Source: Xanthostigma xanthostigma (lineage: Eukaryota; Arthropoda; Insecta; Raphidioptera; Raphidiidae). From it: 64,000 nucleotides of DNA. The stretch lies in assembly GCA_963575645.1 (NCBI GenBank), contig OY754464.1, positions 29,155,501 through 29,219,500 of the forward strand. The letters are read 5' to 3'. The position numbers and the translations under genes were made by a program. The notes beneath the pieces were generated by a model. That model was not told the origin of the DNA. It did not search any database and saw nothing but the letters and a program-made list of their open reading frames with translations. Shown here in pieces: positions 11,587 to 52,664 of the stretch; within the stretch, counting starts at the first letter, position 1, and each line of letters begins with the position of its first letter.

Positions 11587-12660
11587 GTACTTAGAACAAA
11601 ATTATAAAATATTAAAGAGAGTTAGATTTTAACTGTTCAGTAAACGTTTATACAACAATTCTTATGCAACATTTTTGCTGTCGAAACAAAATTGTTTTAT
11701 AGTGGCTATATAAAGGCAACCACTAGGATCATTTGGTTACTTTAGAAACAATTATAAAATACTTTTTTAAAAGCTGAGCTGAACAATAATAAAATAGTTT
11801 TGTAATGCCGTTTTCTGTCACATTATTGCTGCACAGAACATTATTTAATGCGCCAAGGGCCTTTATCCGAGTATTTTATAATAGAATCATACAAAGCCAT
11901 TATACAACACTTATCGAATAGTTATAACTCAAAAAAATACTTTTTTCCATCAATATTTTTATAAAACAAAACTATTCAAGTAAGGTTCGCCTTATTGATT
12001 TATTTTATCAGTTCTGCTGTTGTGCTGTCAGAATGTTAAGCAAGTGGAAAGAAATAAAAAGAAGTGGAGCTTTTCGCAGAAAGGTCAGCAAATACTATGC
12101 AATTTTGAGTAATAATGGCCATGAAACAGTAACTAATAATAACAGTGGCATAATTTTAAAAAATAAACCCCCAGAAGAGCCTGCAGTCTACGATACCGAT
12201 CTTTTAGATGAAAAACCGCAGAACTGATAAAATAAATCAATAAGGCGAACCTTACTTGAATAGTTTTGTTTTATAAAAATATTGATGGAAAAAAGTATTT
12301 TTTTGAGTTATAACTATTCGATAAGTGTTGTATAATGGCTTTGTATGATCCTATTATAAAATACTCGGATAAAGGCTATTGGCGCATTAAATAATGTTCT
12401 GTGCAGCAATACTGTGACAGAAAACGGCATTACAAAACTATTTTATTATTGTTCAGCTCAGCTTTTAAAAAAGTATTTTATAATTGTTTCTAAAGTAACC
12501 AAATGATCCTAGTGGTTGCCTTTATATAGCCACTATAAAACAATTTTGTTTCGACAGCAAAAATGTTGCATAAGAATTGTTGTATAAACGTTTACTGAAC
12601 AGTTAAAATCTAACTCTCTTTAATATTTTATAATTTTGTTCTAAGAACATTCTTAGTACT
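11587..12660. repeat. Long inverted repeat, ~430-bp arms
   Basis: The left arm is about 11587-12012 and the right arm about 12226-12660. By eye they are roughly 97-98% identical when reversed, for example AAGTAAGGTTCGCCTTATTG against CAATAAGGCGAACCTTACTT. Such similarity implies recent formation or ongoing correction between the arms. A transcript would fold into a long hairpin with the ORF in the loop. Confidence 0.8.
12033..12227 (+). CDS. Small ORF in the loop of the palindrome
   Basis: This is a 64-codon frame with a true ATG. It fills the spacer between the two inverted arms almost exactly: the left arm ends about 20 bases before the ATG, and the TGA is the first bases of the right arm. 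The N-terminus is basic (KWKEIKRSGAFRRKVSKYY) and the C-terminus is acidic and proline-containing (PPEEPAVYDTDLLDE). The basic start resembles the N-termini of some insect transposase-like proteins I recall, so it may be a leftover 5' transposase exon in a non-autonomous element. I cannot assign a family. There is no visible promoter beyond the many TATAAAA motifs of the arms. Confidence 0.35.
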   Translation: MLSKWKEIKRSGAFRRKVSKYYAILSNNGHETVTNNNSGIILKNKPPEEPAVYDTDLLDEKPQN

Positions 12661-17785: not shown

Positions 17786-18026
17786 CGGTAGATGGCTGAT
17801 ATGTTTTCTTTGATTTCTTCAAAACTAGTCGGTGGAAATTAAAAAAATAAACTATTTAAATTAAAGCAATCTTTTTAATTAAATATCTTTTTAATTAGTC
17901 GGGCACAACGGGTTTTTTTTTGTTTTCAATAATTTATTAAGTTTTAACTTTAATTTAAATAGTTTTTTTTAAATTTCCACCGACTAGTTTTCGAGAAATC
18001 AATGAAAACATATCATTCATCTACCG
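17786..18026. mobile_element. Small inverted-repeat element
   Basis: The left arm CGGTAGATGGCTGATATG, AAAACTAGTCGGTGGAAATT and ACTATTTAAATTAAAG is mirrored on the right with few changes. Arms are about 95 bp around an AT-rich middle. Target duplication is not clear. Confidence 0.6.
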
Positions 18027-20524: not shown

Positions 20525-20800
20525 CTGTTCCAAGCTGTCTGAAAATGGTAACAGAACCGTCAGAATTTGTTCAGGGTCTGTTACCGTTCTCTAACTGTCT
20601 GGAACAGATCTGTTATAACAAACAATAAAACACACTTGAAAATTCTACAAAATATTTTCTTTCTCTTGACGATCATTTCGGAAAACCCATATCTGGACGA
20701 ATACAGACATTGAAGATGGACTGATTGTCCGAAACGATCGTCGAGAAGAGAGAGAGAAAATATTTAGTAGAATTTTCAAGTGTGTTTCATTGTTTGTTAT
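20525..20800. repeat. Two adjacent foldback repeats
   Basis: 20525-20608 is an imperfect hairpin (CTGTTCCAAGCTGTCTGAAA against its reverse CTGTCTGGAACAG). Directly after it, 20615-20800 is a longer inverted repeat: ATAACAAACAATAAAACACA and TTGAAAATTCTAC are mirrored at the far end with one or two changes. The centre of the second contains TTGAAGATGGACTGATTGTC and CGAAACGATCG, a layout also seen in the palindrome at 52286. Both may be non-autonomous DNA elements. Confidence 0.6.
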
Positions 20801-26650: not shown

Positions 26651-27388
26651 ACGGATTTGATTGCGAATTTAGAAATACTTTTTTAGAATTTTTTCAGTTT
26701 TTGTTTAAAGATTACTTATAAATTACTAGCTGTTACACGCGATATCTCACGCTATAACAGAAACTTTATTTTAATTATTATATAATAATGGCAACGCGAG
26801 TGAGGCCCGTTATCAAGTCACTCAATTGTATAAAATTTTCATAACGTAACATAAGAAAATATCCAAGAAATGCGTTATCAATTTATTAATGAAATTAATT
26901 TACGTATGTGTGGAATGCTATGAAAAGTAATTATTACTGAATATTTAATTAATAATAAATTGATAACGTTTTCTCGGAAACTTTTTTATGTAATTTTGTG
27001 AAAATTTTACATGAGATTATAGAGAAAAAAATGAAGATTTCTAAAATGTAAAATTGTGTTGCCATTTGAAAAAAAAAATGCATGTACACTTCCGGTTGAG
27101 TTTGAGGTACAAAAAAATATACCTCAACAGTTTCCGATGACAAATCTCGAGTTGAACAAAAAACTATTTAAGCTTTTTTTTGTATCTAGTAGGATACACG
27201 AATTATTTACTGTTACCACTTTCGGTGAACGCACTGTATACCAAATATTTTTGAAATCGGGTTTAAGACGTTTCAGAGTTACGGCGGAACAGACATACCA
27301 ATTATATAACTTGAATTCATGCAAAATTCCTACAAATATATTCAAATTTTGGAAACAATACGTATCGCTAATCGCTATTTTCACTTAA
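26651..27388. other. No gene; retroposon-like tail at ~27220
   Basis: About 27220-27300 has CACTGTATACCAAATATTTT, GAAATCGG and GAGTTACGGCGGAACAGACA, similar to LINE 3' tails. The overlapping open frames on both strands across 27056-27388 follow from that repeat. Confidence 0.4.
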
Positions 27389-27808
27389 GAGTATTCGTCC
27401 CAGCAAACACCCCCTGCACCCTTTATCTCAAATCTTTTCCCCTCGCCTAAAAACGGTTTGCGCTCTCCCGACGCTATTTTTAAAGCTAGAGGGTTCTGGT
27501 AAACGCCAAATAAAGGACAAAGAATTAGGCTACAGATCCTTCAGGCGAATTTTTTGAAAAAAAGTTTCGTTTACGTGTGAAATATTACGTAATTTATTAT
27601 TTTTTTCCAAAGGTTGTAAGTTTTTTCAGAAATTTTTTTTCAAAAAATTCGCCTGAAGGATCTGTAGTCTGATTCTTTGTCTTTCATTTGGCGTTTACCA
27701 GAACCCTCTAGCTTTAATAATAGCGTCGGGAGAGCGCGAACCGTTTTTAGGCGAGGGGAAAAGATTTGAGATGAAGGGTGCAGTGGGTATTTGCAGGGAC
27801 GAATACTC
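27389..27808. mobile_element. TTAA-flanked palindromic MITE
   Basis: Flanked by TTAA at 27385-27388 and 27809-27812. The arms are about 165 bp each (27389-27555 and 27642-27808) and begin GAGTATTCGTCCC. They share CTCAAATCTTTTCCCCTCGC, CTCTCCCGACGCTATT and CAGATCCTTCAGGCGAATTT with few differences. The spacer is about 85 bp and AT-rich. TTAA is the target of piggyBac- and Kolobok-type elements, but the terminal bases do not match canonical piggyBac ends, so the superfamily is open. Confidence 0.8.
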
Positions 27809-27812
27809 TTAA

Positions 27813-33711: not shown

Positions 33712-34139
33712 AAGTCTTATTTATTTTATTTGAAGTTTCCCAAAATTTCTTTTGTGAATGCTTATATCTTCTAATTTCTAAACTAAAAGGGAAACAGAAA
33801 TTTGCTCCAGCTCATTTGGATGTGGTTTAGATTTTTCAGATATACATTTTCAAAACCTGTAAGCATCAGGAATTGTAAGACATTATAGCTATTATAATAT
33901 GTAGTTATGTGGTGCCATAAGTTACACAAAAAAATCATGTGGATTACGGAACAACATTCAACATAGGCTACGTCAACTTGGCCCCCGACTTGTTTTTTTT
34001 TAAATTTTTTTTTGATAATTCAATTGTGCTCGCATTGTGCTACATTGTGCTGTAATTCATTTCAATTGTGCTCATTTGCAAATTGCTTTAAAATTAGAAA
34101 CAAATCCGGGGGCCAAGTTGACGCTCAGCCCCCGAAAAT

Positions 34140-36895
34140 TTTGGCATTTTTATGTTTTTTTTAGGTCATTCGATTGTGCTCACATTGTGTAACATTGTGC
34201 TGCTGAGTTTTTCAATTTTTCTCAATTGCAAAGTCGATAAATTTAAAAACAAACCCGGGGGCGGACCTAAACAATAGCCCCCGGCAAACTGTTGATATGA
34301 GATAATTTTTTTCTAACGTAATACATTGTGCTCGCATCGTGTAACATTGTGCTGCTGAGTTTTTCAATTTTTCTCAATTGCAAAGTCGATAAATTTAAAA
34401 ACAAACCTGGGGGCGGGCCTAAACAATAGCCCCCGGGAAACTGTTGATAATTGATAATTTTTTTCTAGCGTAACCCATTGTGCTCGCAATGTGTAACATT
34501 GTGCTGCTGAGTTTTTCAATTTTTCTCAACTGCAAAGTACATAAATTTAAAAACAAACCCGGGGGCGGACCTAAACAATAGCCCCCGGGAAACTGTTGAT
34601 ATGAGATAATTTTTTTCTAACGTAATACATTGCGCTCGCATTTTGTAACATTGTGCTGCTGAGTTTTTCAATTTTTCTCAATTGCAAAGCTGATAAATTC
34701 AAAAACAAACCCGGGGGCGGACCTAAACAATAGCCCCCGGGAAACTGTTGATAATTAATAATTTTTTTCTAGCACAATCCATTGTGCTCGCAATGTGTAA
34801 CATTGTGCTGCTGAGTTTTTCAATTTTTCTCAATTGCAAAGTCGATAAATTCAAAAACAAACCTGGGGCGGACCTAAACAATAGCCCCCGGGAAACTGTT
34901 GATATGAGATAATTTTTTTCTAACGTAATACATTGTGCTCGCATTTTGTAACATTGTGCTGCTGAGTTTTTCAATTTTTCTCAATTGCAAAGTTGATAAA
35001 TTCAAAAACAAACCCGGGGGCGGACCTAAACAATAGCCCCCGGGAAACTGTTGATATGAGATAATTTTTTTCTAACGTAATACATTGTGCTCGCATCGTG
35101 CAACATTGTGCTGCTGAGTTTTTCAATTTTTCTCAATTGCAAAGTCGATAAATTCAAAAACAAACCTGGGGGCGGACCTAAACAATAGCCCCCGGGAAAC
35201 TGTTGATAATTGATAATTTTTTTCTAGCGTAATCCATTGTGCTCGCAATGTGTAACATTGTGCTGCTGAGTTTTTTAATTTTGCTCAACTGCAAAGTACA
35301 TAAATTTAAAAACAAGCCCGGGGGCGGACCTAAACTATAGCCCCCGGGAAACTGTTGATAGGAGATAATTTTTTTCTAACGTAATACATTGTGCTCGCAT
35401 TTTGTAACATTGTGCTGCTGAGTTTTTCAATTTTTCTCAATTGCAAAGTTGATAAATTCAAAAACAAACCCGGGGGCGGACCTAAACAATAGCCCCCGGG
35501 AAACTGTTGATATGAGATAATTTTTTTCTAACGTAAAACATTGTCCTCGCATCGTGCAACATTGTGCTGCTGAGTTTTTCAATTTTTCTCAATTGCAAAG
35601 TTAATAAATTCAAAAACAAACCCGGGGGCGGACCTAAACAATAGCCCCCGGGAAACTGTTGATATGAGATAATTTTTTTCTAACGTAAAACATTGTGCTC
35701 GCATCGTGCAACATTGTGCTGCTGAGTTTTTCAATTTTTCTCAATTGCAAAGTCGATAAATTCAAAAACAAACCTGGGGGCGGACCTAAACAATAGCCCC
35801 CGGGAAACTGTTGATAATTGATAATATTTTTCTAGCGTAATCCATTGTGCTCGCAATGTGTAACATTGTGCTGCAAGAGTTTTTCAATTTTGCTCAACTG
35901 AAAAGTACATAAATTTAAAAACAATCCCGGAGGCGGACCTAATTATCAGCCCCCGGGAAACTGTTGATATTTGATAAATTTTTTCTAGCGTAATCCATTG
36001 TGCTCGCATTGTGTACCATTGTGCTGCTAAGTTTTTCAATTTGCTCAAATGCAAAGTACATAAATTTAAAAACAAACCCGGGGGCGGACCTAAACAATAG
36101 CCCCAGGGAAACTGTTGATATTAGATAATTTTTTTCTAACGTAATACATTGTGCTCGCATCGTGCAACATTGTGCTGCTGAGTTTTTCAATTTTTCTCAA
36201 TTGCAAAGTCGATAAATTGAAAAACAAACCTGGGGGCGGACCTAAACAATAGCCCCCGGGAAACTGTTGATAATTAATAATTTTTTACTAGCGTAATCCA
36301 TTGTGCTCGAATTGTGTACCATTGTGCTGCTAAGTTTTTCAATTTTGCTCAACTGCAAAGTACATAAATTTAAAAACAAACCCGGGGGCGGACCTAAACA
36401 AGAGCCCCTGGGAAACTGTTGATAATTGATAATTTTTTCTAGCGTAATCCATTGTGCTCGCAATGTGTAACATTGTGCTGCTGAGTTTTTCAATTTTGCT
36501 CAACTGCAAATTACATAAATTTAAAAATAAACCCGGGGGCGGACCTAAACAATAGCCCCCGGGAAACTGTTAATATGAGATAATTTTTTTCTAACGTAAT
36601 ACATTGGGTTCGCATTTTGTAACATTATGCTGCTGAGTTTTTCAAATTTTCTCAATTGAAAAGTCGATAAATTCAAAAACAAACCTGGGGGCGGACCTAA
36701 ACCATAGCCCCCGGGAAACTGTTGATAATTGATAATTTTTTTCTAGCGTAATCCATTGTGCTCGCAATGTGTAACATTGTGCTGCTGAGTTTTACAATTT
36801 TGCTCAACTGCAAAGTGCAAAAATTTAAAAACAAGCCCGGGGGCGGACATAGTCTATAGCCCCCGGGAAACTGTTGATATTTGATAATTTTTTTC
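34140..36895 (+). repeat. 152-bp tandem array, left arm (~18 units)
   Basis: The period is 152 bp: the ACAATAGCC block starts at 34271, 34423, 34575 and 34727. Each unit contains CCCGGGGGC, a 14-base loop and GCCCCCGGG, which can pair as a hairpin. This is followed by AAACTGTTGATA, a T-run, AACGTAATACATTGTGCTCG and ACATTGTGCTGCTGAG. Two subtypes are mixed: one with GATATGAGATAA and CTAACGTAATAC, the other with GATAATTGATAA and CTAGCGTAATCC. Open frames of 60-83 codons through the array are by-products of the repeat. Confidence 0.95.
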
Positions 36896-37040
36896 TTCGT
36901 AAGTCGATGTTAGTAAATATAATGACGTCTTATAAATTGTGCCTTTCTATGTCGAAATTTTTATTAAGTCGAAAACTCATATTAACTGAAACTTTTTAGC
37001 ATTTCCCTTGAAATTCGAGTTATCGAGATTTCACTATATT
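36896..37040 (-). mobile_element. Pogo-like terminal sequence, left arm
   Basis: Read in reverse, ATATAGTGAAATCTCGATAA followed by CTCGAATTTCAAGGGAAATG and GTTTTCGACTTAATAA resembles pogo/Tigger ends. The same sequence occurs in the right arm at about 38626-38800. No transposase of that type is present, so it is a nested fragment duplicated with the arm. Confidence 0.4.
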
Positions 37041-37447
37041 TGGAAACGAAAATATGTTTTTGTAATTAAGAAAATTCTACCAAAACAGTGCAATAACTGT
37101 CATCATTAGACATCGGACATTTATTAGTCTAGACATCGGACTTTTATTGCAAAAACGCTTAAAGTCAGGACCGGTCTCTAATTATACAAAAAAAAATCTT
37201 AAAAAACATCATGAGAACTTAATGTGACAGGTAGAAACGTGTTCTTTTATTAAATTATTAGTCTAACATAACATTTTTTATCAATCTAGATTCTAGATAA
37301 TTAAATAACAGAAAAAACCCGAAAGAACAATATTTTTTTCTTTAAAATCGAACCACCGTTTGATGATAGCAAATCATTCGTTTCGCTTGAACGCTTTGAA
37401 GGTATTTACCGAATAATGTTCAAACAACCAATCACAGAGGAGTATGC

Positions 37448-37450
<3 letters not shown>

Positions 37451-37482
<32 letters not shown>
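37451..37482 (+). repeat. (GT)16 microsatellite
   Basis: About 16 GT units. The mirrored site at about 38205-38217 has only 6-7 AC units, so the arms have diverged here by slippage. Confidence 0.9.
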
Positions 37483-37486
<4 letters not shown>

Positions 37487-37581
37487 AGTTCTCAGACACA
37501 TAAAAACAGAAGTACCAAAACATTGATTTGCGAAATTTTCTTCTTAGTACATATAGGTATTATGTATTATTAAAATTTTTT

Positions 37582-38180
37582 CTATGTTTGAATTAATAGT
37601 CTATATCTCCTTTCACTTAAAATTAGTTTATAAATTGAGAACGACCGTTCAACATCTACCGATGTTACCGGAGAATTTTTATAAAAATAAAATAAATTAT
37701 ATGGAATGTTCGGTACATTTTCTATGCCACCATTAAAAATATTACTAATTTTAGATATTATTTCATATCCAGGATTGTTTAGTAACACACTATTAAGTTT
37801 TGAGTTTATATTTTTCCCGATTATTCAAATCTGAAAATCGTTTTTTTGTTTCTTCAATTAACATAAGTGAATCGTGAAGAGGTAAATCCGATTTTTCTAA
37901 TTGTTTGATTGTTGATAGCAGAATAGCATAATGCTCTTTAATTAACAGAAAATCGTTCTTAATTTCACTGTTTTTTAATACAGCTTGCGCTTTTGTTATT
38001 GATTGAGATTCTGTTGGATCCAATAGTAAAATCACGTTTTTTATATACCTTCAAAATGGTCGGCATAAAATATGGCCGCATTTAGCCAATTGCCCCACCT
38101 TGTAATAACAGGTTCTGGTGGTAGGAAATATTGGGCAGGCAATTTTGATATATTTTCACCCTTGAAGGAGCTTTTAAAAA
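37582..38180 (-). pseudogene. hAT transposase, C-terminal fragment
   Basis: On the minus strand, starting near 38170: a hAT-type block PPEPVITRWGNWLNAA (FYADHF follows), then LDPTESQSITKAQAVLKN, then NNPGYEIISKISNIF and the dimerisation motif SVDVERSFSIYKLILSERR near the C-terminus. The series is typical of a hAT subgroup with a C-terminal dimerisation domain. It is broken: stops follow HFEGI, and a frameshift lies near 37790 between the two main open segments (37793-38035 and 37582-37788). The N-terminal zinc finger and most of the catalytic domain are absent. It fills nearly all of the unique centre of the palindrome. Confidence 0.85.
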
Positions 38181-38625
38181 TATTTTTTTTCTATTTGAAC
38201 TATTTACACACACACACATAAAGCATAATGCTCTGTGATTGGTTGTTTGAACATTATTCGGTAAATACCTTCAAAGCGTTCAAGCGAAACGAATGATCTG
38301 CTATCATCAAACGGTGGTTCGATTTTAAAGAAAAAAATATTATTCTTTCGGGTTTTTTTTCTGTTATTTAATTATCTAGATTGATAAAAAATGTTATGTT
38401 AGACTAATAATTTAATAAAAGAACACGTTTCTACCTGTCACATTAAGTTCTCATGATGTTTTTTAAGATTTTTTTTTGTATAATAAGAGACCGGTCCTGA
38501 CTTTTAGCGTTTTTGTAATAAAAGTCCGATGTCTAGACTAATAAATGTCCGATGTCTAATGATGACAGTAATATTGCACTGTTTTGGTAGAATTTTCTTA
38601 ATTACAAAAACATATTTTTGTTTCC

Positions 38626-38800
38626 AAATATAGTAAAATCTCGATAACTCAAAGTTCAAGGGAAATGCTAAAAAGTTTCAGTTAATATGAGTTTTCGACT
38701 TAACAAGAATCTACAGATTTAATTACTAAAAATTTCGACATAGAAAGGCACAATTTATAAGACGTCATTATATTTACTAACATTGACTTACAAAGAAAAA
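38626..38800 (+). mobile_element. Pogo-like terminal sequence, right arm
   Basis: Mirror of the left-arm segment: ATATAGTAAAATCTCGATAA, CTCAAAGTTCAAGGGAAATG and GTTTTCGACTTAACAAGAAT. It is slightly diverged from the left copy. Confidence 0.4.
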
Positions 38801-38809
38801 AATTATCAA

Positions 38810-41800
38810 ATATCAACAGTTTCCCGGGGGCTATAGATTATGTCCGCCCCCGGGCTTGTTTTTAAATTTTTGCACTTTGCAGTTGAGCAAAATTGAACAA
38901 CTCAGCAGCACAATGTTACACATTGCGAGCACAATGGATTACGCTAGAAAAAAAATATCAATTATCAACAGTTTCTCGGGGGCTATTGTTTAGGTCTGCC
39001 CCCGGGCTTGTTTTAAAATTTATGTACTTTGCCGTTGAGCAAAATTTAAAAACTAAGCAGCACAATGCTACACAATGCGAGTACAATGGATTACGCTAGA
39101 AAAAAATATTAATTATTAACAGTTTCCCGGGGGCTATTGTTTACGTCCGCCCCCGAGTTTGTTTTTAAGTTTATTGACTTTGCAATTGAGAAAAATTAAA
39201 AAACTCAGCAGCACGATGTTACACAATGCGAGCACAATGGATTACGCTAGAAAAAAATTATCAATTATCAACAGTTTCCCGGGGGCTATTGTTTAGGTCC
39301 GCCCCCGGGCTTGTTTTTAAATTTATGTACTTTGCAGTTGAGCAAAATTTAAAAACTCAGCAGCACAATGCTACACAATGCAAGTACAATGGATTTCGCT
39401 AGAAAAAAATTATCAATTATCAACAGTTCTCCGAGGGGTTTTGGTTAGGTCCGCCCCCGAGTTTGTTTTTAAATTTATCGACTTTGCAATAGAGAAAAAT
39501 TGAAAAACTCAGCAGAACGATGTTACACAATGCGAGCACAATGGATTACGCTAGAAAAAAATTATCAATTATCAACAGTTTCCCGGGGGCTATTGTTTTG
39601 GTCCGCCCCCAGGTTTGTTTCTGAATTTATCGACTTTGCAATTGAGAAAAATTGAAAAACTCAGCAGCACGATGTTGCACGATGCGAGCACAATGAATTA
39701 CGCTAGAAAAAAATTATCTAATATCAACAGTTTCCCGGGGGCTATTGTTTAGGTCCGCCCCCGGGTTTGTTTTTAAATTTATGTACTTTGCATTTGAGCA
39801 AAATTGAAAAACTTAGCAGCACAATGGTACACAATGCGAGCACAATGGATTACGCTAGAAAAAATTTCTCAAATATCAACAGTTTCCCGGGGGCTGATAA
39901 TTAGGTCCGCCTCCGGGATTGTTTTTAAATTTATCGACTTTGCAATTGAGAAAAATTGAAAAACTCAGCAGCACAATGTTACACGATGCGAGCACAATGT
40001 ATTACGTTAGAAAAAAATTATATCATATCAACAGTTTCCCGGGGGTAATTGTTTAGGTCCGCCCCCGGGTTTGTTTTTAAATTTATGTACTTTGCAGTTG
40101 AGCAAAATTGAAAAACTCAGCAGCACAATGTTACACGATGCGAGCACAATGTATTACGTTAGAAAAAAATTATCAATTATCAACAGTTTCCCGGGGGCTA
40201 TTGTTTAGGTCCGCCCCCTAGGTTTGTTTTTGAATTTATCGACTTTGCAATTTAGAAAAATTGAAAAACTCAGCAGCACAATGTTACACATTGCGAGCAC
40301 AATGGATTCCGCTAGAAAAAAATTATCAATTATCAACAGTTTCCCGGGGGCTATTGTTTAGGTCCGCCCCCAGGTTTGTTTTTGAATTTATCGACTTTGC
40401 AATTGAGAAAAATTGAAAAACTCAGCAGCACAATGTAACACATTGCGAGCACAATGGTTTACGCTAGAAAAAAATTATCAATTATCAACAGTTTCCCGGA
40501 GGCTATTGTTTAGGTCCGCCCCCTGGTTTGTTTTTCAATTTATCGACTTTGCAATTGAGAAAATTTGAAAAACTCAGCAGCACAATGTTACACGATGCGA
40601 GCACAATGTATTACGTTAGAAAAAATTTTTCTCATATCAACAGTTTCCCGGGGGCTATTGTTTAGGTCCGCCCCCAGGTTTGTTTTTGAATTTATCGACT
40701 TTGCAATTGAGAAAAATTGAAAAACTCAGCAGCACAATGTTACACGATGCAAGCACAATGTATTACGTTAGAAAAAAATTATCTCATATCAACAGTTTCC
40801 CGGGGGCTATTGTTTAGGTCCGCCCCCGGGTTTGTTTTTGAATTTATCGACTTTGCAATTGAGAAAAATTGAAAAACTCATCAGCACAATGTTACACATT
40901 GCGAGCACAATGTATTACGTTAGAAAAAAATTATGTCATATCAACAGTTTCCCGGGGGCTATTGTTTAGGTCCGCCCCCAGGTTTGTTTTTGAATTTATC
41001 GACTTTGCAATTGAGAAAAATTGAAAAACTCAGCAGCACAATGTTACACGATGCGAGCACAATGTATTACGTTAGAAAAAAATTATCTCATATCAACAGT
41101 TTCCCGGGGGCTATTGTTTAGGTCCGCCCCCAGGTTTGTTTTTGAATTTATCGACTTTGCAATTGAGAAAAATTGAAAAACTCATCAGCACAATGTTACA
41201 CATTGCGAGCACAATGGATTCCGCTAGAAAAAAATTATCAATTATCAACAGTTTCCCGGGGGCTATTGTTTACGTCCGCCCCCAGGTTTGTTTTTGAATT
41301 TATCGACTTTGCAATTGAGAAAAAATGAAAAACTCAGCAGCACAATGTTACACGATGCGAGCACAATGTATTACGTTAGAAAAAAATTATCTCATATCAA
41401 CAGTTTCCCGGGGGCTATTGTTTAGGTCCGCCCCCAGGTTTGTTTTTGAATTTATCGACTTTGCAATTGAGAAAAATTGAAAAACTCAGCAGCACAATGT
41501 TACACATTGCGAGCACAATGGTTTACGCTAGAAAAAAATTATCAATTATCAACAGTTTCCCGGGGGCTATTGTTTAGGTCCGCCCCCAGGTTTGTTTTTG
41601 AATTTATCGACTTTGAAATTGAGAAAAATTGAAAAACTCAGCAGCACAATGTTACACGATGCGAGCACAATGTATTACGTTAGAAAAAAATTATCTCATA
41701 TCAACAGTTTCCCGGGGGCTATTGTTTAGGTCCGCCCCCAGGTTTGTTTTTGAATTTATCGACTTTGCAATTGAGAAAAATTGAAAAACTCAGCAGCACA

Positions 41801-43195
41801 ATGTTACACGATGCGAGCACAATGTATTACGTTAGAAAAAAATTATCTCATATCAACAGTTTCCCGGGGGCTATTGTTTAGGTCCGCCCCCAGGTTTGTT
41901 TTTGAATTTATCGACTTTGCAATTGAGAAAAATTGAAAAACTCAGCAGCACAATGTTACACGATGCGAGCACAATGGATTACGCTGGAAACAAATTATCA
42001 ATTATCAACAGTTTCCCGGGGGCTATTGTTTAGGTCCGCCCCCAGGTTTTTTTTTGAATTTATCGACTTTGCAATTGAGAAAAATTGAAAAACTCAGCAG
42101 CACAATGTTACACGATGCGAGCACAATGTATTACGTTAGAAAAAAATTATCTCATATCAACAGTTTCCCGGGGGCTATTGTTTAGGTCCGCCCCCATGTT
42201 TGTTTTTGAATTTATCGACTTTGCAATTGAGAAAAATTGAAAAACTCAGCAGCACAATGTTACACGATGCGAGCACAATGGATTACGCTGGAAAAAAATT
42301 ATCAATTATCAACAGTTTCCCGGGGGCTATTGTTTAGGTCCACCCCCAGGTTTGTTTTTGAATTTATCGACTTTGCAATTGAGAAAAATTGAAAAACTCA
42401 GCAGCACAATGTTACACATTGCGAGCACAATGTATTACGTTAGAAAAAAATTATGTCATATCAACAGTTTCCCGGGGGCTATTGTTTAGGTCCGCCCCCA
42501 TGTTTGTTTTTGAATTTATCGACTTTGCAATTGAGAAAAATTGAAAAACTCAGCAGCACAATGTTACACGATGCGAGCACAATGTATTACGTTAGAAAAA
42601 AATTATCTCATATTAACAGTTTCCCGGGGGCTATTGTTTAGGTCCGCCCCCAGGTTTGTTTTTGAATTTATCGACTTTGCAATTGAGAAAAATTGAAAAA
42701 CTCAGCAGCACAATGTTACACGATGCGAGCACAATGTATTACGTTAGAAAAAAATTATCTCATATCAACAGTTTCCCGGGGGCTATTGTTTAGGTCCGCC
42801 CCCAGGTTTGTTTTTGAATTTATCGACTTTGCAATTGAGAAAAATTGAAAAACTCAGCAGCACAATGTTACACGATGCGAGCACAATGTATTACGTTAGA
42901 AAAAAATTATCTCATATCAACAGTTTACCGGGGGCTATTGTTTAGGTCCGCCCCCGGGTTTGTTTTTAAATTTATCGACTTTGCAATTCAGAAAAATTGA
43001 AAAACTCAGCAGCACAATGTTACACGATGCGAGCACAATGTATTACGTTAGAAAAAAATTATCTCATGTCAACAGTTTACCGGGGGCTATTGTTTAGGTC
43101 CGCCCCTGGGTTTGTTTTTAAATTTATCGACTTTGCAATTGAGAAAAATTGAAAAACTCAGCAGCACAATGTTACACAATGTGAGCACAATCGAA
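38810..43195 (-). repeat. 152-bp tandem array, right arm (~29 units)
   Basis: The same unit as the left array, in reverse orientation (CTATTG block at 40807, 40959 and every 152 bp). There are about 29 units against 18 on the left, so copy number changed after the palindrome formed, or the arms were never equal. In the inner part (about 38830-40000) units are more diverged; from about 40600 to 43000 they are very similar, with the ATCTCATATCAAC subtype dominant. That gradient suggests recent homogenisation on the outer side. Confidence 0.95.
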
Positions 43196-43407
43196 TGACC
43201 TAAAAAAAACATAAAAAAGCCAAAATTTTCGGGGGCTGAGCGTCAACTTGGCCCCCGGATTTGTTTCTAATTTTAAACCAATTTGCAAATGAGCACAATT
43301 GAAATGAATTACAGCACAATGTAGCACAATGCGAGCACAATTGAATTATAAAAAAAAAAATTTTAAAAAAACAAGTCGGGGGCCAAGTTGACGTAGCTTT
43401 CAACATA

Positions 43408-44354
43408 ATGGTTTAAATTGGTATTTACTTTGCTGCGTCATGTGTGTTAAATGAGTGTGTAATTGTTTATATGAATGTAATTTTTCATTCCTCTGATATT
43501 ATAGAATAATGTAAAAATTATAAAATTATTGTTTTACAAGCATTATAATATAAAACGTATACATAAAACACAGAATAAATATAGCATTATAAAATATTGT
43601 TTGTTTAATTCTCTGTACAGCAAACATCATTCGTCTGAAGTATGCCGAGGTTTGCTTACATACAGTGTGTTACGTGCTTAAAGTTCTTCATTGAATTTGT
43701 CTGGACATGGTCTATAGTTGGTCGGATGATTTAATCTCTGCATTTCAAATCATTCAAATATATGTGCTTATTGTGTGTACGTGTGCGCGATAACTCTTAA
43801 TTTGAATGAAATTTGGTATACATAGCTCGATACCAGTCTAAAAAAGGAAACTAGAACACACGAGTGAAGTTGCCATTTCTCATCATGTAGGTAGCCATTT
43901 TCATCCGGCTTTCCGAGCTCCTGATTGGTTTCCTTTTCTATCGTGAAGTTACTTGCGATATCCAGGACAATTCAATCAATGTATATCTTACAAGAATATC
44001 TCGAGCAATAAGATCAATATTCTGGAAGTATATCTTTCAAGGATATATTTTTCGCGGCGCGCGAAGCCGCAAGCTTTAAAATGAACGCAATCGAACAGGA
44101 CCTTTAAAAAATGATGAAAATATCGTGAAATGTTGAGAATCAATATAAATAGTTGCAATATTTCCTGTCTCAAAATTTTAATACACTAGGGTTCATGTTT
44201 TTTTTTTTTTAATTAACAACAGTCAATTTTCCAAAATATATATCACGCTTCCGTACATATCAATATTATTTTAACTATAAAAAAGGTGACACCGTTTTCG
44301 AAAACCACGTGTGCAGTACTGTGTATAAAAAAATATTGATTAAGATTATTAAAA
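43408..44354. other. No gene; weak retroposon-like text
   Basis: Near 43790-43850, TTGAATGAAATTTGGTATAC and CATAGCTCGATACCAG resemble LINE 3' tails. Nothing else was recognised. Confidence 0.4.
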
Positions 44355-44582
44355 AAAATAAAATATAGTTTAAAAAAAACTAAAAAACACGCTTTATATC
44401 GAACTAAAAAGTAAAAAATAATTTTTTTAAAATAAGCTTAAAAAGCGTTGGGCGCTTTGTTCCACATTTTCGTACATCGAGCGCCCAACGCTTTTTAAGC
44501 TTATTTTAAAAAAATTATTTTTTACTTTTTAGTTCGATATAAAGCGTGTTTTTTAGTTTTTTTTAAACTATATTTTATTTTT
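44355..44582. repeat. Perfect palindrome, 102-bp arms
   Basis: The arms 44355-44456 and about 44480-44582 are reverse complements with no mismatch that I can find. The spacer is 23 bp. Landmarks are AACACGCTTTATATCGAACT and AAAAGCGTTGGGCGCT. Perfect identity means recent origin or frequent correction; single-stranded DNA or RNA from here would form a very stable hairpin. It may be a MITE, but terminal and target sites are not clear. Confidence 0.9.
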
Positions 44583-44595
44583 CACTTTTTAGTTT

Positions 44596-44894
44596 GAGGA
44601 TCTATAAAAGAATTTATTAATCCTGGGGGTCCTAATAAGGATAATGGGAAACTGTTATCAAATTATTGCATTGTCATCGGTCCTTGATACGTATGCAAAG
44701 TTTCAAATTAATCAGACTTCGGGAAATTGGTGAAAATAAAGCGTTTACTACAGAGGATCTATAAAAGAATTTATTAATCCTGGGGGTCCTAATAAGGATA
44801 ATGGGAAACTGTTATCAAATTATTGCATTGTCATCGGTCCTTGATACGTATGCAAAGTTTCAAATTAATCAGACTTCGGGAAATTGGTGAAAAT
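44596..44894 (+). repeat. 142-bp exact direct duplication
   Basis: GAGGATCTATAAAAGAATTT to the AAATTGGTGAAAAT end is present twice (from 44596 and from 44753), apparently without differences, with a 15-bp linker that includes AAAGCGTTTAC. The sequence has LINE-tail-like text (CAAAGTTTCAAATTAATCAG). It lies immediately after the perfect palindrome. Confidence 0.9.
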
Positions 44895-45089: not shown

Positions 45090-45336
45090 CCAGACTCGTC
45101 ATTTCAGTACTGTTAAAACTTTATCAGTAAAGGTACAATATTTAGTTAAAAACGTATGCTAACTTGCTAGCTGAAAGCGTAGACTTTTAAGAGATAACAC
45201 GTGTTTTATGTACCTTTAGAACCTGTTATCTCTAAAAGGCCCACACTTTCAAGCTAGCAAATTGGCATACGTTTTTAACTAAATATTGTACATTTACTGA
45301 TAAAATCTTAGCAGTTTTGAAATGATGTAGGTCTGG
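45090..45336. mobile_element. MITE, ~100-bp inverted arms
   Basis: The ends CAGACTCGTCATTTCAG and, reversed, CAGACCTACATCATTTCA lead into mirrored blocks GTACAATATTTAGTTAAAAA and TTGCTAGCTTGAAAG-like sequence. The arms meet near AGAGATAACACG. No ORF and no clear target duplication. Confidence 0.7.
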
Positions 45337-51944: not shown

Positions 51945-52280
51945 ACAGTTGCTTTTCATGCCTGTAGCGGTAGTAAAATGACCCTTTTTCGCACCAGTGC
52001 CGTAAGTAAAACAAAATAAATGATATTTAACCAATCCAATAGTAATTCCCCTCCCCCCCCCCAAGTTGCCATTTAAAACCATATGAGCAACAAACACAGC
52101 AAAGTAGGCGTAAATAATCAAAATAGATTCCTATATGGCCGAATATGAACGGTCAAATACATAAATATATACTTATTATGAAGTTAAAATCAGTGAATTT
52201 ATGGCAGATTCGTGCTTTCATGATTCCCGTAATTGTTAAAACTCACTGGCTGGTCGTTTTAACATAAAAAAATGCATTAT
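51945..52280 (+). repeat. Interspersed repeat family B, copy 3
   Basis: Contains TTTTTCGCACCAGTGCCGTA, ACCAATCCAATAGT, CCATATGAGCAAC, GCAAAGTAGGCGTA and ATGGCCGAATATGAAC in the same order as copy 1. A C-run is found where copy 1 has the TCTCTGTC site. Confidence 0.65.
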
Positions 52281-52285
52281 AATCT

Positions 52286-52468
52286 ACGATGAAGGAGGGT
52301 TTGGTTGAGGATCAGAAATAAACTTTACCAACGTTACGCTAGTGGCCAACGTTTCGAAAAATTTATTTACTTTTACTGAAGATGAAAATAAATTTTTCGA
52401 AACGTTGGCCACTAGTGTAACGTTGATAAAGTTTATTTCTGATCCTCAACCAAACCTTCTTTCATCGT
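52286..52468. repeat. Near-perfect palindrome, ~82-bp arms
   Basis: ACGATGAAGGAGGGTTTGGT, GAGGATCAGAAATAAACTTT and GTGGCCAACGTTTCGAAAAA are mirrored on the right with about six differences. The loop is ACTTTTACTGAAGATGA. It shares the TGAAGATG-then-CGAAACG layout with 20615-20800, so both may belong to a foldback family. Confidence 0.8.
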
Positions 52469-52664
52469 GACATTGTATTGGATCAACTCTATTATATACT
52501 GAAGACATTATAATCTACATTAAAGACCTGACGTTTCATATAATATTGTCGTGGATGTCCTCAATCGCCTAAACTCCTAAAGGAACAAGTTACACGACCA
52601 CTCAACTAGAAATCGACTACACATTCGTTATTTTAAAAACGTTTTCAAAAAAATTATAATTCGT

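Follow-up and report, generated by a model that had tools for sequence, protein, structure and literature searches.

A non-autonomous foldback element with arms built of a 152-bp tandem repeat in a snakefly genome, probably of Mutator-like type

Foldback elements with tandem-repeat arms

Foldback elements with long tandem units that give rise to satellite DNA have already been described, namely Tetris of Drosophila virilis (PMC4079207). In the excerpts of the papers on which the comparisons below are based, each arm of Tetris consists of a terminal domain, tandem units and an inner domain, as in the element described here. The units of Tetris are ~220 bp long and have 37 bp in common with its terminal domain, its centre is non-coding, its target duplications are 8-10 bp long, and no autonomous copy was found (PMC4079207). 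In contrast, the unit here is 152 bp long, and almost all of it can be aligned to the terminal module (with 74% identity among aligned bases), the copy studied carries 19 and 30 units around a hAT-like centre, and there are no free arrays among the unit matches listed.

Mutator-like elements (MULEs) provide further parallels. Tandem repeats make up the composite arms of the Mutator/foldback element Tm1 of root-knot nematodes, which makes mostly 9-bp duplications and has MITE-like forms and a gene inside one member; unlike the present element, its units are ~14 bp long and a copy with a Phantom-type MULE transposase is known (PMC3169594). In Aedes, the target duplications of all 14 reported MULE families are 8-9 bp long, and one MULE of Aedes aegypti, Muta1, is classed as a type 2 foldback and has subterminal tandem repeats (PMC5225508). 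Muta1 and other Aedes aegypti MULEs also have non-autonomous derivatives with foreign centres, as here, but the units of Muta1 are 12 bp long, its arms 145 bp, and its active transposase is known (PMC5225508). A survey found MULEs across arthropods, with inverted repeats of 13 to 1193 bp in coding elements only, a range that the arms described below exceed (PMC13359780). Rehavkus and Phantom MULEs likewise make 9-bp (8-10) duplications and carry minisatellites: Rehavkus has one ahead of one of its ends, and Phantom of aphids has one behind its transposase gene. These are coding elements, and their likeness to the present element is one of description (PMC6446971).

Galileo, a P superfamily element of Drosophila, resembles the present element in its long arms with tandem units, unequal in number between arms, and in having recruited internal sequence into the arms, but it has a P-type transposase and 7-bp duplications (PMC3573991). 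The foldback FB4 of Drosophila melanogaster has symmetric ends that begin with AGCT, as here, and is otherwise different (AGCTCAAAGAAGCTGGGGTC; PMC9682801).

The element resembles foldbacks already known in flies. A sequence-only reading of this DNA had stated that tandem-repeat foldbacks are known, but none with this unit or a hAT core. Our literature search returned no foldback or Mutator-like satellite with a 152 bp unit, and no occurrence of the end sequences GCTACGTCAACTTGG and CCAAGTTGACGTAGC was found in the literature searched; that statement needs correcting in so far as Tetris, in the part of its report cited above, already combines long tandem units with derived satellite DNA.

Structure, copies and insertion sites

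The window, that is, the whole stretch of 64,000 nucleotides analysed, contains an inverted-repeat element of 9,433 bp at 33966-43398, with coordinates exact to the base. Its features are as follows.

33957..33965, plus strand: left target-site duplication, TTCAACATA
33966..34123, plus strand: left terminal module, beginning G-GCTACGTCAACTTGGCCCCCG; 98.1% identical to the solo 164-bp copy
34108..34123, plus strand: 16-bp direct repeat GGGGGCCAAGTTGACG, with a second copy at 43378-43393
34152..36896, plus strand: left array, 19 units of 152 bp including partial ones (BLAST); mean 93.8% identity to the unit consensus
36893..37470, plus strand: left inner arm, mirrored
37491..38204, minus strand: centre, a broken hAT-like transposase gene fragment (C-terminal part), a captured passenger
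38206..38797, minus strand: right inner arm, inverted copy of 36893-37470
38794..43212, minus strand: right array, 30 units of 152 bp including partial ones (BLAST); mean 94.9% identity to the unit consensus
43241..43398, minus strand: right terminal module, terminating GACGTAGC-T; 96.2% identical to the solo 164-bp copy
43399..43407, plus strand: right target-site duplication, TTCAACATA

The 9.4-kb palindrome, the 9-bp flanking direct repeat, the opposite-facing arrays and the mirrored inner segments proposed in the sequence-only reading were all confirmed. The ends match at 97% over 234 bp, and the inner segments (~0.6 kb) at 92%, or 97.5% with gap columns excluded. TRF also identified period-152 arrays, at 34173-36896 (90% matches) and 38794-43191 (93%). 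The arms measure 3.5 and 5.2 kb, and the motif ATTGTGCT is present 94 times across the element. With its long inverted arms that contain tandem repeats, the element belongs structurally to the foldbacks. For arms of kilobase length a chance origin is not an issue. A 9-bp match at a given position is expected by chance with p ~1e-5 from base composition and p = 6e-5 from the window's own 9-mers, self-matches included, and six copies carry one.

A genome search with the 21-mer end (≤3 mismatches) returned 21 matches, 16 of them exact, against none for the reversed control. Family ends have A or G followed by GCTACGTCAACTTGGCCCCCG (the element ends are also given as AGCTACGTCAACTTGG), and nine ends compared over their outermost 300 bp differ from one another by 0-3%. 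We identified six two-ended copies, of 9.4, 9.2, 7.4, 6.3, 0.5 (507 bp) and 0.16 kb (164 bp). The further copies with 8-9 bp duplications sought by the earlier reading do exist: all six have perfect duplications of 9 bp, each different from the others. The remaining nine of the 21 end matches are one-ended; in the eight examined, the sequence retrieved on the expected side contained no exact partner of the 9 bp. An exact end match at C3:8111645 was rejected as a candidate partner, given that only ~40 bp of the end matched and the rest of the 2 kb read was unlike the element.

The 164-bp copy lies in a repeat, and 40 of 40 scored relatives of that repeat (from 1342 candidates at first look) are uninterrupted at the junction, with a single 9 bp, as expected of an empty site. 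The proposed empty-site check thus succeeded for this copy, one of four insertion sites tested; the other three, those of the window copy and of the copies at C2:36.9M and on C3, have single-copy flanks and yielded no empty site. With several copies, target duplications in all six and empty sites at one site, the claim of a mobile foldback built largely of a 152-bp unit holds.

These insertion sites also bear on whether recombination or misassembly, rather than transposition, gave rise to the structure as a satellite array or a palindromic duplication. Large palindromes are difficult to assemble, and one copy is indeed split between two contigs inside its array: its left flank lies on C24 and its right flank on C2, with identical 9 bp on both sides and the cut in register to the base. 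Nonetheless, differing flanks with perfect duplications at all six two-ended copies, the empty sites of the 164-bp copy, and four long copies with unequal array lengths make such an origin extremely improbable. The split copy marks a point where this assembly was cut, leaving a 107-kb piece, apparently of chromosome C2, as a separate contig, and so shows a practical hazard.

The transposase and the hAT-like centre

We infer the transposase class from duplication length and structure alone, and the element is probably a non-autonomous foldback DNA transposon of Mutator-like type. MULEs make 8-10 bp, mostly 9-bp, duplications, and all six here are exactly 9 bp. Among Drosophila foldbacks, FB too makes 9-bp duplications. 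The 7-8 bp duplications of the P superfamily and Galileo were not seen in any of the six. A genome search for the MULE transposase domain gave 53 matches. Many of them have long open frames, and a frame of 615 aa matches MULE, Transposase_mut and SWIM above cut-off.

No transposase gene with the element's ends was found, nor any extra facing pair of ends within 20 kb (21-mer ≤3, 15-mer ≤1 mismatch; the 15-mer search was at control level, 34 vs 33). No MULE match lies within 0.7 Mb of any end in the 21-mer list. One MULE locus (L075), read over 4.4 kb, is without these ends, and no terminal repeats were found in it. Separately, the 15-mer search gave one new exact end match, at C13:6177108. That no engine with these ends was found would also suit a foldback moved by another superfamily, such as Merlin, which makes 8-9 bp duplications. 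We consider this improbable, since tandem-arm foldbacks with 9-bp duplications are tied to MULE transposases in the cited excerpts on Tm1 and Muta1.

A hAT core had been proposed for the centre. The broken gene at 37491-38204 has a partial PF05699 match below cut-off (E 0.0064). A relative at 42% identity matches DUF659, a domain of hAT elements, above cut-off, and PF05699 at E 0.11. The copy of the fragment on C13 (a 187-aa frame) gave no hAT match, and searches of solved structures and NCBIfam with the hAT-like pieces and a relative returned nothing. The hAT-like nature of the centre is thus weak on its own profile match, and its relatives point to it.

The fragment is central in all four long copies, as it would be if the core were a decayed autonomous hAT element whose transposase moves the whole. 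However, hAT target duplications are usually 8 bp, and none of the six two-ended copies has one. The fragment, only ~0.7 kb long, also occurs on C7 and C13 without arms or ends, and the copies of 164 bp and 507 bp, which lack it, have moved as well. A hAT engine is already largely refuted and very improbable. The part of the earlier proposal that stands is a broken hAT-like fragment; because of the 9-bp duplications and the armless fragments on C7 and C13, it is a captured passenger and not the engine.

The left inner arm from 37130 inward is sequence that also flanks the fragment at the unrelated locus on C7, and the four long copies all have the same inner arm pair and the same hAT-like centre, in a fixed arrangement relative to each other. 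The arm-tip diagnostic TTTGTG/TTTATG tracks the orientation of the hAT-like piece in each of the four. The direction of the centre is plus in the window copy and minus in the other three, which fits inversion of the core or insertion in the other orientation.

Descent of the 152-bp unit and growth of the arms

The unit and the 164-bp copy share 107 identical of 145 aligned positions, with a score of 135 (1000 shuffles, 45 ± 8, maximum 73). Judged by this likeness, the 152-bp unit appears to derive from the subterminal module, a descent also reported for the unit of Tetris. A 157-bp double repeat at 44596-44894 was dropped as a relative of the unit, as 36 of 500 shuffles reach its score. The most similar unit lies in the same arm for 48.3 of 148 units (label shuffles 18.4 ± 3.5) and in the opposite arm of that element for 17.5 of 148 (14.2 ± 3.1). 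Array lengths vary between arms and between copies in the four long copies.

The near full-length homology would also be expected if the 164-bp copy were an ancestral miniature element and the array its concatemer. Unit junctions can form a hairpin with a 9-bp stem (z -3.75, in a hand-picked stretch), which could be a relic of two joined ends; folding of 146 of the unit's 152 bases was no better than shuffles (z 0.13). Against such an ancestor, just one solo copy was found, and it is 96.2-98.7% identical to the terminal modules of the long copies; by comparison, the outermost 300 bp diverge by 0-3% among nine ends. From the 16-bp direct repeat, such a copy would be expected as a product of deletion. 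We therefore see the 164-bp copy as possibly, yet not likely, ancestral. It is quite unlikely that the arms represent a polymer of transposons, in which every 152-bp unit is the degenerate form of a whole miniature element (164 bp, having ends and a target duplication of its own), the elements having been joined in series, perhaps via a circular excision product. If so, the satellite would be a transposon concatemer carried within a longer element of its own family.

On the preferred Mutator-like reading, a transposase acting in trans, most likely of a MULE, would bind the ends and possibly also the repeated arm motifs ATTGTGCT, cut with a 9-nt stagger and paste the element elsewhere. The arms would have grown as the subterminal module was duplicated in tandem and then underwent local unequal exchange or slippage. 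The hAT-like fragment would have been captured once, and an inverted duplication would then have pulled its flank into both arms. Loss of internal sequence would give rise to the short copies; a deletion between the 16-bp direct repeats at 34108-34123 and 43378-43393, for instance, would yield a copy like the 164-bp one.

The suggestion that such an element could seed satellite arrays across the genome is not supported among the unit matches listed (of at least 190): they fall in six loci, each with an element end, and no free arrays were seen outside the element. The family offers another case of the Tetris route, in which a subterminal module becomes a long tandem repeat while the foldback is still mobile. 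Because its copies span 164 bp to 9.4 kb and carry target duplications, the order of the steps, from module duplication and array growth to capture and deletion, may be read within one genome.

Structure and mobility of the foldback family

The window corresponds to C1:29155501-29219500 of the assembly. Within it, each arm of the foldback element runs inward from a terminal module of ~158 bp through an array of 152-bp units to an inner segment of ~0.6 kb. The two arms measure 3.5 and 5.2 kb, with 19 units in the left array and 30 in the right (partial units included), and a centre of ~0.7 kb sits between the two inner segments.

Element and target-site duplications in the window
33957-33965, left target-site duplication, TTCAACATA
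33966-43398, element, bounded by TTCAACATA on both sides
43399-43407, right target-site duplication, TTCAACATA

The element belongs to a mobile family. In the assembly (623 Mb, 28 contigs), its 21-base end has 21 matches at up to 3 mismatches (16 exact), against none for the reversed control. Six two-ended copies account for 12 of these matches, and all six carry a perfect 9-bp target duplication; the sequence-only reading had suggested looking for duplications of 8-9 bp. In these copies, either A or G adjoins GCTACG at the terminus.

Two-ended copies and their target duplications
Window, TTCAACATA
Contigs C24/C2, TAGTAGGTA
C3:13389144, CAAAAGCGC
C2:36931768, TTGGTATAT
C2:24458378 (507 bp), ATAGTCGAA
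C1:1900838 (164 bp), GACTCGAAG

Empty sites, also named there as something to look for, were recovered for the 164-bp copy: with its flanks joined, all 40 relatives scored (1342 candidates at first look) run uninterrupted across the junction with a single 9-bp copy. The joined insertion sites of the window, C2:36.9M and C3 copies are single-copy in the genome, and no empty site was found for them. The other nine end matches are one-ended; in the sequence stretch inspected (C8:1709058 left out), eight of the nine have no exact 9-bp partner on the expected side, the pattern that truncated copies would show. Further terminal modules on C5, C8 and C10, at only 77-88% identity, point to older copies alongside recent ones.

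One copy is split between contigs. C24 (107,000 bp) stops at base 107000 within a unit array, and C2 likewise starts inside an array. Base 107000 of C24 and position 1 of C2 are consecutive in unit register with no unit base missing, the joined alignment outscores every variant tried with 1-20 bases removed or inserted, and the outer flanks share one 9-bp duplication. We infer an artificial cut, so that C2 would in reality begin with C24; the round length of C24 suggests a scaffolding break inside the copy.

Elsewhere in the window, seven self-inverted stretches (44354-44582, 27385-27812, 52272-52483, 45099-45325, 17786-18026, 20615-20800 and 26831-27009; 179-428 bp, 69-94% identity) resemble miniature or foldback elements, and 11587-12021 and 12214-12648 form a 435-bp inverted pair (98.6% identity, spacing 192 bp).

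Origin and turnover of the 152-bp unit

Aligned to the 164-bp copy, the unit scores 135 (107 identities over 145 aligned bases) against 45 +/- 8 for 1000 shuffles (maximum 73), and it thus descends from the subterminal module. Among near-full-length units from five copies, the nearest unit lies in the same arm for 48.3 of 148 units, versus 18.4 +/- 3.5 for shuffled labels, and in the element's opposite arm for 17.5 of 148, near the expected 14.2 +/- 3.1. Thus, the arrays appear to change mainly through local exchange. The motif ATTGTGCT is found 94 times within the element versus 6 times in the remaining 54.6 kb of the window; a role as a binding site is a guess.

The idea that the element seeds satellite arrays across the genome was not borne out: of at least 190 unit matches, the stronger ones listed all fall in six loci, each with one or more element ends. 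At 44596-44894, 1.2 kb past the element, lies a perfect repeat with a 157-bp unit in 1.9 copies; it was rejected as a relative of the 152-bp unit, the similarity not being significant.

The hAT-like centre and the inner arms

The sequence-only reading had described a broken hAT transposase core. The same centre is present in all four long copies, and since stops interrupt the best core protein match of each, the core is taken as a passenger. Its hAT-like identity is likely but not tight, because the window core protein piece has a weak PF05699 hit (E 0.0064, short of the cut-off), the 187-aa frame of the C13 core copy has no hAT match, and a 524-aa open frame on C2, 42% identical to the C13 frame, passes the cut-off for DUF659 and reaches E 0.11 for PF05699.

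The TTTGTG/TTTATG difference that distinguishes the two inner arms keeps a constant relation to the centre in 4/4 long copies, which indicates a single origin of the arrangement; the eight inner arms differ from one another by 0.5-3.4%. The centre also occurs on C7 (90% identity) and C13 (87%) with adjoining inner-arm sequence, at C7 starting from window 37130, and without foldback arms, so that part of each inner arm would have been recruited from the flank of a hAT-like element.

A ~95-bp inner-arm piece (positions 306-399 and 1150-1242 of window 36893-38790) recurs at many loci on C10, C8, C1, C11, C12 and others, many also with a core piece, and these likely represent a non-autonomous hAT-like family. 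Separate insertions lie within the core of one copy at C2:36936079-36936768 (~0.7 kb) and of another at C24:102300-102636 (~0.3 kb); overlaps of 10 and 4 bases, respectively, between the matched pieces may be target duplications.

Transposase source and related families

Most likely, a trans-acting transposase cuts the element ends, with insertion at a 9-nt stagger, and the 164-bp form could derive from deletion between GGGGGCCAAGTTGACG at 34108 and GGGGGCCAAGTTGACG at 43378. The enzyme would be of the Mutator-like element (MULE) class, given the 9-bp duplication length and because foldbacks with tandem arms are known to be linked to MULE transposases, as described for Tm1 (PMC3169594) and Muta1 (PMC5225508). 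The genome has 53 MULE-domain matches, long open frames among them, and the one locus read has a 615-aa frame with MULE, Transposase_mut and SWIM matches all over cut-off; none of the 53 was found tied to element ends. C10 (41 of 623 Mb) holds 34 of them, 31 at 8.8-16.3 Mb, a transposon-dense region.

The plan of the X. xanthostigma element is also that of Tetris from D. virilis, which combines a terminal domain, tandem units of ~220 bp akin to that domain and an inner domain, with 8-10 bp duplications, no autonomous copy reported, and unit arrays that turned into satellite (PMC4079207). Galileo likewise has tandem units within its arms and recruited internal sequence (PMC3573991), and minisatellites are present in Rehavkus and aphid Phantom MULEs (PMC6446971). 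A review lists several routes to satellites, from MITEs and from internal transposon arrays (PMC12628747). The inverted repeats given in a survey of 322 arthropod MULEs (at most 1193 bp; PMC13359780) are shorter than the 3.5- and 5.2-kb arms here. Because Tetris shares its plan, and Galileo, Rehavkus and Phantom share features with it, the element is a new family of an already known kind, a large one with a broad size series.
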